Shown here: in pieces, positions 16,270-41,922 of the stretch
Layout: each line of letters begins with the position of its first letter
Numbering within the stretch: position 1 is the first letter of the stretch
Source: Candidatus Eremiobacterota bacterium
Lineage (GTDB): Bacteria; Vulcanimicrobiota; Vulcanimicrobiia; Vulcanimicrobiales; Vulcanimicrobiaceae
DNA length: 64,000 bases
Assembly: GCA_019235885.1 (NCBI GenBank)
Contig: JAFAKB010000072.1
Location: 1-64,000 of the forward strand
Reading direction: 5' to 3'
Translations under genes and position numbers: made by a program
Notes under the pieces: model-generated
What the model was told of the DNA's origin: nothing
The model's input: the letters and a program-made list of their open reading frames with translations, nothing else
Databases searched by the model: none

Positions 16270-17511
<1,242 letters not shown>

Positions 17512-17533
17512 CGCCGCAAGGAGCTTTCGTTCG

Positions 17534-17665
17534 GTGGAAATCATCGTCTCGTTGATCGCCTTCTTCGCCCTGATCGTCTCGTGGTTCGTCCTGCCGGCGG
17601 CGCCGCGGCAAGCGAAAGAAGTCCACGTGCGCGCCGCTCCGGAGCCGCTGGCCACCGCAGCGTAG
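17534..17665 (+). CDS. 43-residue single-pass membrane microprotein
   Basis: A short frame opening with GTG, preceded by AAGGAG (17518-17523) at ten bases. The product has one hydrophobic helix (IIVSLIAFFALIVSWFVLP) followed by a short basic/Ala-rich tail and a TAG stop. It starts 22 bases after amtB, so it is likely on the same transcript. Known bacterial microproteins of this shape often modulate a membrane partner, but a link with the transporter is inference from position only. Confidence 0.55.
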   Translation: MEIIVSLIAFFALIVSWFVLPAAPRQAKEVHVRAAPEPLATAA

Positions 17666-17672
17666 CGCGCCG

Positions 17673-17688
17673 AAGCTCGCGCGAGCTT
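17673..17688. terminator. palindrome between convergent amtB and btuD transcripts
   Basis: AAGCTCGCGCGAGCTT is a perfect 16-bp palindrome filling the gap between the microprotein stop and the btuD stop on the other strand. It could fold as a 6-bp stem with a 4-base loop on either transcript. There is no T tract, so its role as a bidirectional terminator is tentative. Confidence 0.35.
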
Positions 17689-18462
17689 TCAGCGCGGGAC
17701 GGCGTTGCGGTGGAACGCCAGGCCGCCGGGCCGGCGCTCCACCGTCACCGCGACGCCGTACGCGCGCGCGATCGACTCGGCGGTCAGCGCGCGTTCCGGC
17801 GGGCCGTCCGCGACGACGCCTTCGCACCCCAGCACGACGACGCGGTCGGCGAACGCGGCAGCCTCTTCGAGCTGGTGCAGCACCGCGACGACGAGCGCGC
17901 CGTCCTCCGCGAGCTCGCGGACGAGTTGCAGCGTCTCGACCGAGGCTTTCAAGTCGAGGTGCGACGTCGGCTCGTCGAGCAGCACGACCGCGGCGCGCTG
18001 CGCGATCGCGAGCGCGATCCAGACCCGCTGCCGCTCCCCGGCGGAGAGCGTTCCCAGCTCCCGCGCGCGAAACGGCGTAAGCCGGGTGCGCGCCAGCGCG
18101 TCGTCCACCACGGCCGCGTCGTGTTCGGTCGCCTCCCACTCCCACCAGCGGTGGTGCGGAAAGCGCGCCGCCGCAACCGCGTCGGCGACGCTCAGCGCGG
18201 CGAGAACCGGTTCGGTCGGATCGACCAGCGCGATCCGCTTGGCGCGTTCGCGCGCGTCGAGCGCGCGCACGGCGACGCCGTCCAAACGCACGCTTCCGGC
18301 GGCCGGCGCGAGCGCGCCCGCCATCGTGCGCAGCAGCGTTGTCTTGCCGACGCCGTTGGCGCCGACCAGCGCGACGAGGCCGCCCTCGAGCGCGAGCGAG
18401 ACGTCGCGCAGCAGCGTTCGGCCGCCGCGCTCGATCTCGACGCGCTCGAGGGCGAGCGTCAC
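17689..18462 (-). CDS. btuD: cobalamin/iron-type ABC transporter ATPase
   Basis: A 257-residue ABC ATPase with Walker A GANGVGKTT (about residues 34-42), signature LSAGERQR, Walker B VVLLDEPTSHLD and switch His in LHQLEE. Size and sequence style match FecE/BtuD/FhuC importers. With btuC and btuB upstream and a cobalamin riboswitch at the head, B12 uptake is the likely role. The start is GTG, seven bases after the stop of the metallopeptidase gene, which separates it from btuC. Cobalamin specificity is inferred from context, not from this protein. Confidence 0.85.
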   Translation of the reverse strand: MTLALERVEIERGGRTLLRDVSLALEGGLVALVGANGVGKTTLLRTMAGALAPAAGSVRLDGVAVRALDARERAKRIALVDPTEPVLAALSVADAVAAARFPHHRWWEWEATEHDAAVVDDALARTRLTPFRARELGTLSAGERQRVWIALAIAQRAAVVLLDEPTSHLDLKASVETLQLVRELAEDGALVVAVLHQLEEAAAFADRVVVLGCEGVVADGPPERALTAESIARAYGVAVTVERRPGGLAFHRNAVPR

Positions 18463-18469
18463 CGCAGCG

Positions 18470-20509
18470 CTAGTTGCATTGACCGGCCGGTCCGATGCAG
18501 GCGCCGTTGTCGTCGTAGCTTCCCTGCGTCAGCGCGCCCTGCACGGATCCACCCGGCGCGGACGCCGAGTTGAGCTCGACGAGCGAGCCGCCGGATTTCG
18601 CCGTATTGAAGAACAGCGTCGCGCCGCTGATCAGCTTGGCGTGCACCGTGACGCTCGGCGTGAGCTTGATGCGCGCCGCGCCGCCCGGGTTCGACAGGGT
18701 GATGTCCTCGGGCGAGCGCGGTCCGTCGAAGCGCAGGTTGTACGTCGTTCCGCCGGGGAACGTGATCGTCGTGAGCCCGTTCAGCAGCACGTTGCTGCCG
18801 AACGTGAAGCGCGGATCGGTCGAGGCGACGTTGCGCGCGCCGAGCGCCGCGGCGAACTCGTCGTAAAGCTGCGCCCACGTCTCGCCGTTTCCGGCCTCGG
18901 CGACGATCGGGTGCAGGTTCGCGACGCTCGACGAGGACGGGCTCAGGTCGGCGTACAGCCGGTGCAGCGCCGCGTCGCCGCCGAACCGGTCGTACATGTA
19001 GCGCGCCAAGAGATACGCGCCGCCGTAGCTGCCCTGCGTGTTGTGGAAGAAGCCGTAGCTCGGCGTCTGCGACGTGCTCAGCGGGTCTTGGTCGTACCCG
19101 GTGAACGAGGGGATCGAGAAGTTCCCCGGCGCGAACATGTACGCCCAGGCGTCGTAGCGCGGCTCCCACGACTGCGGCGAGTTGACGCCGCTGCCGAGCA
19201 CGAGATCCTCGGCCAGCTCGGAGCAGCCTTCGTCGACCACCGGGTCGTCGAAGTAGCCGGTAACGTTGTTCTGCAGCTCCGGGATCAGCACTTTGTTCAG
19301 CGCGTGGAGATAGTGCTGGAACTCGTGCGGCACCGAGCGCGGCATGTCGAGCGTGCGCCAGAACCCCTCGTCGGCGACCGTGCTGGAGCCCGTATTATAC
19401 TTGTCGGCGCCGATGACGACCATCGGAAGCTGGTTGCTGGGTGCGTGCGGGCCTTTGAACGCACAGTTGAGCTCTTGGTCGTTCAAGTCGTTGCGGAAGT
19501 CGAAGTAGCCGCCCTCGCCGTTGGCGGCGAGTGCGTTCGTCACGAGGATGCTGACGTGGGGATCGGTTCCGGAGAGATCGACGGTCGGCTGATACGACGC
19601 TTGCGGCAACGGCGCCCCGGTGGTGTCGCATTGCGTGTACTGCTGGTTCGCGTGGAAGAAGGCCGGGCCGTAGGCGGCCGTCTCGCGCGCGTAGTCGGTG
19701 TCGAACGTGCTCGCGGTCGTGTTCCAGTCGGCCGCGGTCGTGTTGAAGCTCGGGTCGGTCGTGACCGCGTTCTCCACCCAAACGTAAGCGTGGTTGGAGA
19801 CCGCTTGCAGCGTCGCCGGAACGTCGAGATAGCACTGACCGCCTTGGCTTTGATCGGGTGGATTGCACGTTCCGCCGACGCCCGTGATCGCGTTTTGCAG
19901 AACGTGGAACGTTCTGGTGGCGCCAACGGAGAAGCTCTGCGCCCGCCGCAGGCTCTCGGCCCGCCGGCTCAGCGGCACCCGCGAGCGGGACTGGGTTTGC
20001 TTCGCGTAGATGCGCGTCAGGGCACTGGTCCGCGGATCGAGCTGCGGACGGTACGGAAGGACCGCCACCCGCTCCATCGACATCGGCGCTCGCTGGTTCG
20101 CCGCAATGCGCACGGTTGCGGTGACGCGTGTGCGCGCGCCCGGCACTTGTCCGCCGGCGCTCTCGCTCGCGGTCACGTCGTATTCCGTCAAGCTGGTGCC
20201 GGCCGCGGCTTCGGCCGGCGTGTCGGTGCTCTGCACGACGAAGGTGCCGTCTGCCGACGCGTTCAGCATCGAGGATGCGAATTGGTTCGACGCGTTCGCC
20301 GCGAGCTGCGTCACGCCGCCGCTCGGCGCAACGTATCCGGCCGCGGGCGGCGTCGCCGTCGCAACCGGCGTCGGCGTCGGCGTCGGCAAACCGCCGCCTC
20401 CTCCGCCGCCCGGAATCGAGCCACCGCCGCCGCCGCCGCCACCGCATGCCGCTAGTGCGGCGAAAAAAACGACCGCGAGAGCCGGTCGCACCCGTGCGTT
20501 CATATGCAT
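18470..20509 (-). CDS. lipoprotein zinc metallopeptidase (HExxH) inside the B12 uptake operon
   Basis: A 679-residue lipoprotein: hydrophobic signal with lipobox AALAAC, then a Gly-rich and Thr/Pro-rich linker. The catalytic site is HEFQHYLH (His395, Glu396, His399), with a likely third ligand about 30 residues later in DEGCSELAED. This gluzincin arrangement resembles M30/hyicolysin-type peptidases. A beta-rich C-terminal domain (from about residue 560) follows. The gene lies 42 bases after btuC and seven bases before btuD, so it probably shares their transcript. The start at 20509 has GGAGGG upstream; an ATG two codons later is equally possible. The substrate is unknown; a role in freeing cobalamin from protein is speculation from context. 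Confidence 0.8.
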   Translation of the reverse strand: MHMNARVRPALAVVFFAALAACGGGGGGGGSIPGGGGGGGLPTPTPTPVATATPPAAGYVAPSGGVTQLAANASNQFASSMLNASADGTFVVQSTDTPAEAAAGTSLTEYDVTASESAGGQVPGARTRVTATVRIAANQRAPMSMERVAVLPYRPQLDPRTSALTRIYAKQTQSRSRVPLSRRAESLRRAQSFSVGATRTFHVLQNAITGVGGTCNPPDQSQGGQCYLDVPATLQAVSNHAYVWVENAVTTDPSFNTTAADWNTTASTFDTDYARETAAYGPAFFHANQQYTQCDTTGAPLPQASYQPTVDLSGTDPHVSILVTNALAANGEGGYFDFRNDLNDQELNCAFKGPHAPSNQLPMVVIGADKYNTGSSTVADEGFWRTLDMPRSVPHEFQHYLHALNKVLIPELQNNVTGYFDDPVVDEGCSELAEDLVLGSGVNSPQSWEPRYDAWAYMFAPGNFSIPSFTGYDQDPLSTSQTPSYGFFHNTQGSYGGAYLLARYMYDRFGGDAALHRLYADLSPSSSSVANLHPIVAEAGNGETWAQLYDEFAAALGARNVASTDPRFTFGSNVLLNGLTTITFPGGTTYNLRFDGPRSPEDITLSNPGGAARIKLTPSVTVHAKLISGATLFFNTAKSGGSLVELNSASAPGGSVQGALTQGSYDDNGACIGPAGQCN

Positions 20510-20551
20510 GGCGCCCTCCGTACGCCGCCCGCTCGGCTCGCACCCGTCGGC

Positions 20552-21532
20552 TCAAGCGTACGCATGTGCGGCACCGCGCAAATACAACACCAAGAACGTC
20601 GGTACGCCGACGAACGCGAGCAGCACGCCGAGCGGGATCTCAGCCGGTGCCGCAAGCGTGCGCGCGAACGCGTCGGCGAGCACGACGAGCGCTGCGCCGA
20701 CCAGCACGCTCGCCGGAACGAGCGCGCGCAGATCGGGGCCGACGACGCGCCGCGCGAGATGCGGGACGACCAGCCCGACGAAACCGAGCAGCCCCGCGAG
20801 CGCGACCGCGGCCGCGGTCAGCAGCGTCGAGGCGACGAGCAGCGCCCACTGCAAGCGGGTGACGTCGACGCCGAGCGCGGCGGCGCGTCCTTCGCCGAGC
20901 CGCAGCACGTTGAGCGCCGGAATCGCCGCGGCGCCGATCAGCGCGCCGAGAATTACTTCAGGCGTGGCGGCGCCGAGATCGGACCAGCCGCGCCCGGCGA
21001 GCGAGCCGGCGAGCCAGGCGAGGATCGCTTCGCTCGCGGTGCCGCGCGCGAGCCGCTCGAGCGCGAGCGCGACGACCGCCGACAACAGCGCGGAAAGCGA
21101 GATGCCCGCCAGCACCAGCCGTTCCGCGTCGAGCCGCGGACCGCGCCGCGCGAGAACCGCGACCAGCACCGCCGTCGCCAACCCGGAGACGAATCCCAGC
21201 GGCGGAATCAGCACCGGTGCGACGCCGAGCGTCGCGGCGATCGCGATCGAAGCGCCGGCCCCGCTCGCGACGCCGGTCAGATACGGATCGACGATCGGGT
21301 TGCGCAACAGCGCCTGCAACAGCGTGCCGGCGAACGCGAGCGCGCCGCCGACGACCGCGGCGAGAACGACGCGCGGCACGCGCAGTTGCCACACGATCGT
21401 CGCCGCGTCGCCGCCCGACGAGGGATGGAGCAGCGCGTTGAGGAGCGCGTCGGGCGCGAGCGCGGCGCCGCCGAACGCGACGCCCGCCAGCATCGCGAGC
21501 GGGACCAGCGCGGCGAGCGCCGCCAGCCTCAC
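20552..21532 (-). CDS. btuC: cobalamin/iron-type ABC transporter permease
   Basis: A 326-residue FecCD/BtuC-family permease with about nine to ten membrane helices. Typical segments are QLRVPRVVLAAVVGGALAFAG (the LRLPR motif region), LLRNPIVDPYLTGV, GLLGFVGLVVPHLAR (the loop contacting the ATPase) and PAEIPLGVLLAFVGVP near the end. The GTG start overlaps the btuB stop (GTGA), so the two are translationally coupled. It brings the vitamin across the inner membrane with btuD and the btuF binding protein. The B12 assignment rests on the riboswitch; alone it could equally be a siderophore permease. Confidence 0.9.
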   Translation of the reverse strand: MRLAALAALVPLAMLAGVAFGGAALAPDALLNALLHPSSGGDAATIVWQLRVPRVVLAAVVGGALAFAGTLLQALLRNPIVDPYLTGVASGAGASIAIAATLGVAPVLIPPLGFVSGLATAVLVAVLARRGPRLDAERLVLAGISLSALLSAVVALALERLARGTASEAILAWLAGSLAGRGWSDLGAATPEVILGALIGAAAIPALNVLRLGEGRAAALGVDVTRLQWALLVASTLLTAAAVALAGLLGFVGLVVPHLARRVVGPDLRALVPASVLVGAALVVLADAFARTLAAPAEIPLGVLLAFVGVPTFLVLYLRGAAHAYA

Positions 21533-23397
21533 CGCGTCGAGAGCTCCACCGCGAAGGTGCGTCCCGGCATCGGAAACCCGCCGACGTCTTCGTAGCGCTC
21601 GCCACCCAGATCGTAGACGCGCAGCGAGAGCAGCGCGCGCGGCGCGAGGCGCAAACGCGCGTACGCGTCGACGCGCGTGAACGGCGGCGCCGCGCCGAAC
21701 GGATCCGCGTTGCGCCCGACCGAGTGCGCGACGAGCCCGGCCGCCGCGAGCAGCGCGCGCGGCGCGGCGGCGTACGCGAGCTCGACGTTCGAGACGATCA
21801 CCGGCCGGCGCGGCAGCCGCTGCTCCGCGGCGGTGAAGTTCTGCGCGCGGTAGAGGTCGGTGAAGTTCACCCGCGCGGTCACGCCGTTCAGCGGCCGCGT
21901 CCGCACGTCCAAGGTGAAGCCGGCGATCGACGCGCGCTGCACGTTCTCGACGCTCGAGGACGTCGCGACGATCAGATCGTTGCCGGCGGTGACGAACCAG
22001 CCGAGGCTCGCACCGCCGAGCACGTTCGCCGCGTCGAACGCGAGGTCGAGGTTCTTCGTGCGCTCGGGATGCAAGTTCGGGTTCGAGAAACCGGGGTAGT
22101 ACAGGTCGACCGCGGTCGGCGCGCGGAACGCGGTCGAAGCGTTCGCGCGCAGCGCGAGACCGTCGCCGATGCTCCACGTTCCGCCGAGCGAAGGCGCCAG
22201 CGCGCCGCCTTGCGCGCCGTCGCGCTCGGCGCGCAGACCGGCGTACGCGCGCAGCGTGCGCGTCAGCCGCAGCTGGTCCTGTGCGTAGACCGCCGTTTGC
22301 GCGAAGCCGTGCGCCGGCGGGCTGCCGTCGCCCGCGTCGATGCGGTCGGCGCCGTGCGCGAGGTCGACGCCGTAGACGAGCGCGCCGCCCTCGTTCTGCA
22401 CGACGTCGCGCAGCGAGAGCTGCAGCCGCGACTCCACGTTCAGCAGCGCGAACGGCGCGCCGGTGAAGCTCTCCGCGGCGACCGGATCGCGGTAGACGAG
22501 CGACTCGCGCGTTCCGCTGAGGTCGAGCGTGAGCGCGGCGCGCCGCGTGGCGTGCGTGAACGAGGCGCGCGCGTCGGCGGTCACGTCGTCTTGGCGCGCG
22601 TTCGGGGTCACAAACGCGACCGTGCCCGGCACGCCGAGATGGCGCGCGACGATGCCGGCGTCGAGCGCGAGACCGAACGCGCCGAGATGCGTGGTGGTGC
22701 GCCCGCGCAGCGACGTCGAGGCGAGGTCGACGTCGGTGCGCACGCCGGCCGGATCGCTGCCGACGGCGGGAAACGCGAAGTCGTTGCGCGCGACGCGCCG
22801 CTCGAAGGCGATGTTCGGCGCGTCGATCACCAGCGCGTTCTCGCCGAACGTCGCCGCCGAAACGGTCGCGAGCGTCTCGCGCCGGTTTGGCGGCACGGTC
22901 ACGATGTTGATGACGCCGCCGATCGCGCCGGTGCCGTACAGCGTCGCGCCGCTCCCTTCGACGATCTCGATGCGCTCGACGCCGGCGGTCGGCAGCGCGC
23001 CGAGGTCGATCGTGCCGATCTGCGCGCCGGCCAGCGGGCGCCCGTCGACGAGCACGAGCGTTTGGTTCGTGCCGGTTCCGCGCAGCGCGACGCCGGCGAA
23101 CGAGCCGACCGGCCCGTTTCTGGTGACGACGACGCCGGGCACGTCTTCGAGCGCGGCGGCGACGGTGGTGAAACCGCGCCGCACGATCTCGGCTTTGGTG
23201 ACGACGTACGTCGTCTTGCTGGTCGCGCCGGCCGGCTCGTCGCGGCGGTCGCTGGTCGAGACGCGGCCGATCTCGCCGAGCCCGGCGGTCGAAGATGAGG
23301 GCGAGGGGCTTGGCTCGGGCGCGGACTGCGCGAGCGCCGGCGCGCCGGCGAGTGCGATAAGGGCGGCGCAGAGTGCCGCGGAGGTGCGGAAGTGCAT
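21529..23397 (-). CDS. btuB: TonB-dependent receptor (BtuB-type)
   Basis: A 622-residue outer-membrane receptor with a signal peptide (ALCAALIALAGAPALA). The plug domain spans about residues 60-170 (AALEDVPGVVVTRNG, LRGTGTNQTLVLVDGRP, IEIVEGSGATLYGTGAIGGVINIVT), followed by a 22-strand-type barrel ending in FAVELSTR. The length matches BtuB. The ATG at 23397 follows a cobalamin riboswitch, the main reason for the B12 assignment. It overlaps btuC by four bases. Energy would come from TonB/ExbBD, which are not in this window. Confidence 0.92.
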   Translation of the reverse strand: MHFRTSAALCAALIALAGAPALAQSAPEPSPSPSSSTAGLGEIGRVSTSDRRDEPAGATSKTTYVVTKAEIVRRGFTTVAAALEDVPGVVVTRNGPVGSFAGVALRGTGTNQTLVLVDGRPLAGAQIGTIDLGALPTAGVERIEIVEGSGATLYGTGAIGGVINIVTVPPNRRETLATVSAATFGENALVIDAPNIAFERRVARNDFAFPAVGSDPAGVRTDVDLASTSLRGRTTTHLGAFGLALDAGIVARHLGVPGTVAFVTPNARQDDVTADARASFTHATRRAALTLDLSGTRESLVYRDPVAAESFTGAPFALLNVESRLQLSLRDVVQNEGGALVYGVDLAHGADRIDAGDGSPPAHGFAQTAVYAQDQLRLTRTLRAYAGLRAERDGAQGGALAPSLGGTWSIGDGLALRANASTAFRAPTAVDLYYPGFSNPNLHPERTKNLDLAFDAANVLGGASLGWFVTAGNDLIVATSSSVENVQRASIAGFTLDVRTRPLNGVTARVNFTDLYRAQNFTAAEQRLPRRPVIVSNVELAYAAAPRALLAAAGLVAHSVGRNADPFGAAPPFTRVDAYARLRLAPRALLSLRVYDLGGERYEDVGGFPMPGRTFAVELSTR

Positions 23398-23434
23398 CGG
23401 GGTCCTTCCCTTGACGCGAGGGGTGAGGTTGATG

Positions 23435-23622
23435 AACGTCCGCGCGACGGTATCCTGGCTTCGCGGATCGATGCCTCGTGCTGCGGCCTTCCAGCCCTTC
23501 CGGACCGTGACGCGCAGCGGCTCCCCGCTGACAGTGGCGCGACCACGCCGGATTCTCACCGGCTTCCCGCGCACGCGAACTCGACCGGTGTTCGGGGCGC
23601 CGGTTGCGCGAATCCTGGTCCC
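23435..23622 (-). promoter_or_regulatory. cobalamin riboswitch upstream of btuB
   Basis: On the minus strand the leader contains GGGAAGCCGGTGAGAATC (the AAxCCGGTGAAATCCGG-type core, within 23547-23568), then GTGGTCGCGCCACTGTCAGC, and GAAGCCAGGATACC (the 3' core, 23449-23462) before the btuB ATG. The order, spacing and sequences are those of the AdoCbl-binding class. The outer stem can pair CGCGC near 23612 with GCGCG near 23440. B12 binding normally shuts down expression of such uptake genes. The outer limits are approximate. The 5' edge lies about 40 bases from the divergent btuF start. Confidence 0.92.
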
Positions 23623-23664
23623 GGTCGACGAGGTGCGAGCGTCTCGCCGCCGTATCGCCTCGCG

Positions 23665-24531
23665 GTGATCGTTCGCACCGCCGCACTGGCCGCGCTGATG
23701 GCGCTCGCGTCGTGCGCGCCGCCGCGATATACGACAGAAGTGAAGATGATCGCCGGGCCGCCGGTGAACCGCGTCGTCTCGCTGGTTCCGTCGATGACCG
23801 AAGATCTGTTCGCGGTCGGCGCGGGCGACAAGGTGGTCGGCGTCTCGACGTTCACCGACTATCCGCCGCAGGCGAAGCGGTTGCCGGTCGTCGCCACGTT
23901 CGCGTCGATCGCCACCGAACGCATCGTCGCGCTGCATCCAGACCTGGCGATCGGGATCGACGCGCAGGACCGGCTCGCCGGCGACCTGCGGCGCGCGCAC
24001 GTTCAGGTGCTGCTCCTGCGCGACGACGGCTATGACGACATCTTCCGCAACCTGATCCAGATCGGCGCGGCGACCGGACATACCGGCGATGCGTTGGCGC
24101 TGATCAAGCACCTGCGCGCGCGGACGCAAGAGCTCGTGCGCAGCGTCAAGCCGCGAGCGCGCAAGCCTGCGGTGTTCGTCGTGCTCGGCAACGTCCCGGT
24201 CTACACGGTCGGCCACGGCTCGTACATCGAGCACCTCATCGAGCTGGCCGGCGGCCGCAACGCCGCCGGCGACGTGCGCGCGCCGTACGCGCGCTACAGC
24301 GCCGAAGCGCTCGTCGCGCGCCAGCCCGATCTCCTGATCGTCGATCCGGACATCCATCTGAACGAAGCGCTGAGCCGACCGCCGTGGAACGCGCTGCGCG
24401 CGGTGAAGCAGCACCGCGTCTACACCCTTCCCAACGCCGCGATCCTGGAACGCCCCGGCCCGCGCTACAACCAGGGCCTGGCGTGGCTGATCGCAACGAT
24501 CGAGCGCGCCGCGTTGTCTAACCACCGTTGA
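23665..24531 (+). CDS. btuF: cobalamin-type periplasmic substrate-binding lipoprotein
   Basis: A 288-residue protein with a GTG start, hydrophobic leader and lipobox LASC, so probably lipid-anchored. Family hallmarks are RVVSLVPSMTEDLFAVGAGDKVVGVS at the N-terminus (split by the usual first strand), then LHPDLAIG, a long linking helix and QPDLLIVDPDIH. These match BtuF-like binding proteins (class III, PBP2-like). It is divergent from the btuB operon, so the riboswitch controls the other strand, not this gene. Its stop overlaps the TTG start of hflX, making an unexpected pairing with a ribosome-associated GTPase. Confidence 0.88.
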   Translation: MIVRTAALAALMALASCAPPRYTTEVKMIAGPPVNRVVSLVPSMTEDLFAVGAGDKVVGVSTFTDYPPQAKRLPVVATFASIATERIVALHPDLAIGIDAQDRLAGDLRRAHVQVLLLRDDGYDDIFRNLIQIGAATGHTGDALALIKHLRARTQELVRSVKPRARKPAVFVVLGNVPVYTVGHGSYIEHLIELAGGRNAAGDVRAPYARYSAEALVARQPDLLIVDPDIHLNEALSRPPWNALRAVKQHRVYTLPNAAILERPGPRYNQGLAWLIATIERAALSNHR

Positions 24532-41655: not shown

Positions 41656-41922
41656 GCCGGCTCGCCGGATTCCGATAACTAGAGAGCGGACCGGCGGAGA
41701 CCTCGTGTAGACGCCGCTCCGGTTTACGCTCTCGAAGGCGAGGAGCGTCGCTTCGTCATGGGCGGCGCGCCTGAAAAAAAGATCGCTACACCGTCGGTCA
41801 TGCCGGCAAGCTCGCCCGGCGGTGCAGCGCGAGATCAGCAGCCTACTCGACGTGCTGACTCTTCGGACCAAGTGTAACCGAAGTCACGCGTCGAGCGCAA
41901 TCACCTACCTGGGGATTTTCCG

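Follow-up and report, generated by a model that had tools for sequence, protein, structure and literature searches.

A putative metallopeptidase lipoprotein gene recurs beside cobalamin transporter genes in part of the Eremiobacterota

INTRODUCTION

What does a gene for an HExxH lipoprotein do inside a riboswitch-headed cobalamin (B12) uptake operon, between the permease and ATPase genes? The locus lies on the minus strand of the window, i.e., the whole 64,000-nucleotide stretch of DNA analyzed here (contig JAFAKB010000072.1, positions 1 to 64,000, from a Candidatus Eremiobacterota bacterium). Protease genes inside TonB-dependent iron import operons are known from FusC and PqqL (passages of PMC6793856), and riboswitch-controlled btu operons of Bacteroides encode the lipoproteins BtuG, BtuH, BtuJ, and BtuK (passages of PMC6143338, PMC10404256, PMC8941943, and PMC12751083). 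The words B12 and cobalamin are absent from the main text of the former source, and the cited passages of the latter four name no protease of the kind considered here. Likewise, no account of such a B12 uptake protease was found among the titles in a literature search, in which subscription papers were little covered. According to a soil study (PMC11287211), the soil matrix or cells retain much of the corrinoid, and microbial means of liberating it are to be expected.

RESULTS

The minus-strand order proposed in the first-pass annotation, i.e., cobalamin riboswitch, btuB, btuC, the HExxH lipoprotein gene (here M), and btuD, was confirmed, together with the spacing of M, which starts 42 nt after btuC and ends 7 nt before btuD. 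btuB (21529 to 23397) encodes a TonB-dependent outer-membrane receptor with the Pfam domains PF07715 (Plug) and PF00593 (TonB-dependent barrel) and overlaps by 4 nt with btuC (20552 to 21532), whose product is a permease matching PF01032 (FecCD) with an E value of 1.8e-80. M itself (18470 to 20509) specifies a putative zinc metallopeptidase, assigned to the lugdulysin (M30) type by motif and profile match, and is followed by the ATPase gene btuD (17689 to 18462; PF00005, ABC_tran). A gene for a btuF-like periplasmic binding protein (23599 to 24531, plus strand; PF01497, Peripla_BP_2) diverges from the operon, with the riboswitch between them. The top NCBIfam models were TonB-B12 for BtuB and NF007081, a BtuC model, for BtuC, both below their curated cut-offs; for the ATPase, models of F420-0 and corrinoid transporters ranked first and likewise fell short of cut-off. 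B12 specificity is accordingly assigned from the riboswitch and the set of genes. B12-binding domains occur in all 11 genomes of the genus, and none of the 11 matched CbiC, which was detected in 7 of 14 control genomes. The genus probably scavenges B12, a reading that involves one missing family and a set in which several genomes are incomplete.

The M protein has 679 residues, a lipobox (LAAC), and the motif HEFQH at positions 395 to 399. Homologues in 21 of the 117 genomes of the class (E<=1e-8), with the catalytic motif kept, show that M is a genuine gene and not an open frame that arose by chance. In the clade to which it belongs (described below), the lipobox is present in all seven genes with a visible start, and H395, E396, H399, E427, and Y495, the putative zinc ligands and catalytic residues, are kept in 10/10 rows. 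A profile of nine M members matched the PDB entry of lugdulysin, 7bb8, with a whole-sequence E value of 2e-5. The alignment runs through HEYQH, NEALSM, and NYSLSYLF of lugdulysin, a peptidase of family M30, in the same order as in M; its single stretches are weak, with an E value of 0.0015 for HEYQH plus NEALSM and no significance for NYSLSYLF, which holds the Tyr. Both proteins share HExxH followed by Glu and Tyr. This pattern, with the Glu in EG.S, was taken as the mark of the M30/lugdulysin type and is found in every one of the 10 clade rows, and E396 and Y495, when counted with an inferred offset, correspond to the residues changed in 7bb9. M differs from lugdulysin in its long flanks and its lipoprotein nature. 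Window M has no match to any Pfam-A family at E<=1, hence none to M16, glutathione peroxidase, or a binding domain, and no curated family model was matched; NCBIfam yielded only flagellinolysin at 0.065, and Peptidase_MA_2 appeared at 0.093 in one of the nine members. A structure model built from three sequences had a mean pLDDT of 27.8, too low to speak for or against a gluzincin fold. From its motif and profile match, M is likely to be a secreted lugdulysin-type zinc peptidase.

The possibility that the gene order is unique to the window genome was not borne out when relatives were surveyed. Within the same genus, G007 carries the full riboswitch-btuB-btuC-M-btuD operon, and one locus of G010 (contig C259) has M and btuD 4 nt apart on a contig that starts inside M, so that the upstream part is missing. 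M is divergent from btuF-btuC-btuD in G006 and from btuC-btuD in G037, G038, G039, and G040, the last with M split over two contigs. Above 500 bits, nine M genes were found in 8 of the 117 class genomes, and eight of them adjoin btuC or btuD; the remaining gene, G010:C388 (start on C391), adjoins a HutF-like gene instead. A random insertion peculiar to the window genome is unlikely, given btu-linked M genes in eight genomes.

A tree of 23 rows resolved a clade of 10 rows (support 99/99) made up of G010:C388, the eight linked genes, and G093:C348, a fragment on a contig that begins within the M gene. The neighboring type comprises 11 rows in which Q replaces E at position 434; these 'AQDLA' proteins are not one well-supported clade, since 10 rows group at 87/98 and G004 falls outside. 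The tree was built without the N-terminal fragments G093:C331 and G010:C391, the fragments L131, L136, and L138, L075 (G023, in which no HExxH was found), and the weaker phylum matches except G144 and G032. Eight of the 10 M-clade genes are immediate neighbors of btuC or btuD, spread over two families and three arrangements, versus 0 of 11 neighboring-type genes, for which stretches of 9.5 to 16.3 kb per locus were inspected. Because the rows, linked or not, were not drawn independently, the counts stand without a P value; few independent events underlie the linkage.

BtuC was detected in 106 of the 117 class genomes (E<=1e-20) and M in far fewer, which marks M as an accessory of a few genomes. 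Three further members of the genus (G001, G002, and G008) have riboswitch-btuB-btuC-btuD operons without M, with btuC-btuD distances of 40, -8, and 10 nt, respectively; M is therefore dispensable for the transporter. None of 20 btuC loci, one of them a second btu operon of G010, had M beside btuC, but these loci were preselected as having no evident M and provide no independent count. In seven more distant genomes, M-like and BtuC matches lie on different contigs (7/7), a comparison limited by draft contigs. The neighbors on the far side of M vary, with abh, amtB, or porin genes in the genus and a glnA-like gene in the second family. G093 has M fragments, one of which is beside a gene at a contig end that we take to be glnA-like, and a separate btuB-btuC contig that ends inside btuD; an order B-C-D-M-glnA is possible there, and this genome was left out of the linked count. 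The survey covered the 117 genomes of the class and, in other phyla, one named match, a Dehalococcoidia homologue with 27% identity over part of its length, located beside a presumably enolase-like gene.

Window M groups with the unlinked G010:C388 as its closest relative (100/100), and the M proteins of G007 and of the G010 btuD locus group with that of G006 (99/99). These are separate sub-branches, so the slot before btuD holds different sub-branches depending on the species. Identity between the window and G007 is 39% for M versus 82%, 88%, and 82% for BtuB, BtuC, and BtuD, respectively. In G006, BtuC (50 to 54%) and BtuD (44 to 48%) are of another type than those of the other genus members compared, and M is 66% identical to that of G007; the transporter was thus replaced, and M kept its place next to it. 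Part of this pattern could reflect inheritance of the chromosome position. Two further features of these loci were recorded. The G006 region (L061, 2518 to 9913) combines M and this other type of btuC/btuD, which has its own riboswitch and btuF, and its hflX/btuF and porin/abh surroundings are kept. The genus also has two BtuB types, with identities of 79 to 82% among the window, G007, and G001 and of 50 to 53% between these and G008/G002, despite BtuC identities of 85 to 93% among all five.

The overall GC content of M is 67.8% versus 73.4 to 75.2% for btuB, btuC, and btuD, with the drop at codon position 1. GC3 is 87.6% in M, 88.7 to 92.9% in btuB, btuC, and btuD, and 86.5% in btuF; GC1 of amtB is similar to that of M. 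There is accordingly no sign of M being a recent foreign island, with GC3 near that of its neighbors and GC1 matched by amtB. The resemblance between the btuC-btuD gap of G001 and the btuC-M gap of the window was reached by 2 of 2000 shuffles, whereas the window-G007 and G001-G007 pairs gave 34 and 497 of 2000. This thinly hints that the G001 gap may be a trace of M loss.

The riboswitch aptamer (23448 to 23569, minus strand) was identified with cmscan as RF00174, covering model positions 45 to 169 of 189 with 59.2 bits (gathering score, 31.5; E value, 3.8e-12). Downstream, a putative expression platform (23403 to 23430, minus strand) was recognized by eye as a CCCT...AGGG pairing beside the ribosome-binding site of btuB, and the elements CCCTCGCG...AGGGAA were found, again by eye, next to this site in all five leaders (window, G007, G001, G002, and G008). 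The window leader between riboswitch and btuB has no run of four T. Control of btuB thus looks translational, and it would reach btuC via the btuB/btuC overlap. The proposed B12 coregulation of M stands as far as operon structure goes, i.e., in the window and G007 the riboswitch heads the operon on the same strand with short gaps. Against it, the riboswitch seems to target the ribosome-binding site of btuB, and M has one of its own, GGAGGG. Moreover, the G006 riboswitch between btuF and M is directed at btuF, the M-btuC interval yielded no Rfam riboswitch in genomes of the second family, and none reads into M in either case. Control of M by B12 is therefore less certain than the first-pass annotation assumed. 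As to the proposed dependence of btuD translation on M, the short M-btuD gaps of 7, 10, and 4 nt fit coupled translation.

A sigma-70 scan of positions 17500 to 24000 returned no promoter-like site, a result that carries little weight for this phylum. A scan for terminators located a hairpin of seven pairs followed by seven T within the signal-peptide codons of M (20463 to 20489, minus strand). Its T run is one of only two runs of at least six T on both strands of the window, the other being at 41780 (minus strand); overall, the scan gave four terminator-like sites versus a shuffle mean of 4.0. The hairpin could lower the expression of M and btuD when M is untranslated, or it could be there by chance. 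In G007 and G006, the start of M showed no hairpin with T run.

DISCUSSION

That M is repeatedly linked to btu genes speaks for its involvement in acquiring B12. Our tentative preference, to which we would give somewhat less than an even chance, is that M is a secreted, lipid-anchored zinc metallopeptidase that plays an accessory part in the cobalamin uptake of some Eremiobacterota, perhaps by freeing protein-bound cobalamin. Under B12 shortage, the riboswitch would permit expression of btuB and the genes behind it, and cobalamin would be imported by BtuB, BtuF, and BtuCD. M would sit outside the cytoplasm on its lipid anchor, at a periplasmic or surface face, and might cut proteins that hold cobalamin, e.g., corrinoid enzymes or binding proteins in cell debris, such that the vitamin freed would pass to BtuB or BtuF. 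We consider such release of cobalamin from proteins the most likely mechanism, and a plausible one.

The closest parallel is provided by the Fus and PqqL systems (FusA-FusC and YddB-PqqL), in which, according to passages of PMC6793856, the protease processes an imported protein and the nutrient is released. As in these systems, the putative protease gene shares an operon with a TonB-dependent receptor gene in the window and G007. The enzymes and nutrients differ, however, with M16 peptidases (HxxEH) and iron on one side and an HExxH lipoprotein and a B12 transporter on the other; unlike Fus, the divergent arrangements also leave M outside the receptor operon. It is possible, although on the unlikely side, that M represents a dedicated zinc protease linked to B12 starvation that frees protein-bound cobalamin for BtuB, i.e., the B12 counterpart of FusC/PqqL. 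If true, protease-assisted TonB import would extend from iron to a vitamin, and coupling a protease to B12 import would offer a concrete way of liberating bound corrinoid.

BtuE of Escherichia coli is a glutathione-peroxidase-type protein. Its gene occupies the same slot between btuC and btuD and, in the passages of PMC6143338, is without a role in B12 transport, which may be read as the main counterexample to an uptake role of M and as a warning. M might similarly be a passenger, i.e., a secreted protease of general use in feeding on proteins or peptides, cotranscribed by chance and kept by inheritance of the locus, an explanation that we regard as rather unlikely. Besides the E. coli precedent, it would account for the operons of G001, G002, and G008 that do without M, for the one M-clade member in a HutF context, and for G006, where the BBP2 porin and abh genes persist on the far side of M and the position may therefore be inherited. 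A passenger is harder to reconcile with M keeping its btu neighbors across two families and three arrangements even as the gene on its other side changes, and with its place beside a replaced transporter in G006. M also differs from btuE in that it is not of the glutathione-peroxidase family and, as a putative lipoprotein peptidase, is found again in several arrangements.

The tight genetic linkage to btuC and btuD and the predicted extracytoplasmic location of the lipoprotein would also suit a peptidase that trims or turns over the uptake machinery itself (BtuB, BtuF, or another surface lipoprotein) and thereby controls uptake; this is improbable, since the same operon runs without M in close relatives and M adjoins quite different types of BtuC and BtuD. 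Least probable of all, M would be a cobamide-binding surface lipoprotein like BtuG, BtuH, or BtuJ with its peptidase-like core as a scaffold, as suggested by the accessory btu lipoproteins of Bacteroides, which bind cobamides (passages of PMC6143338 and PMC12751083) and, like M, are encoded in riboswitch-controlled btu operons, and by the length of M beyond its lugdulysin-aligned part, but countered by the conservation of all putative zinc and catalytic residues across the clade and by a peptidase motif in a protein with no Pfam family and thus no binding domain.

Other genes were also noted in or near the btu loci surveyed. In G018 (locus L093, 11443 to 13056, plus strand), btuB and btuF are separated by a gene for a family-5 solute-binding protein (SBP_bac_5). 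A gene for a BBP2 beta-barrel porin is located beside btuD in L060, L080, and L081, after M in L061 (G006), and before btuF in L088.
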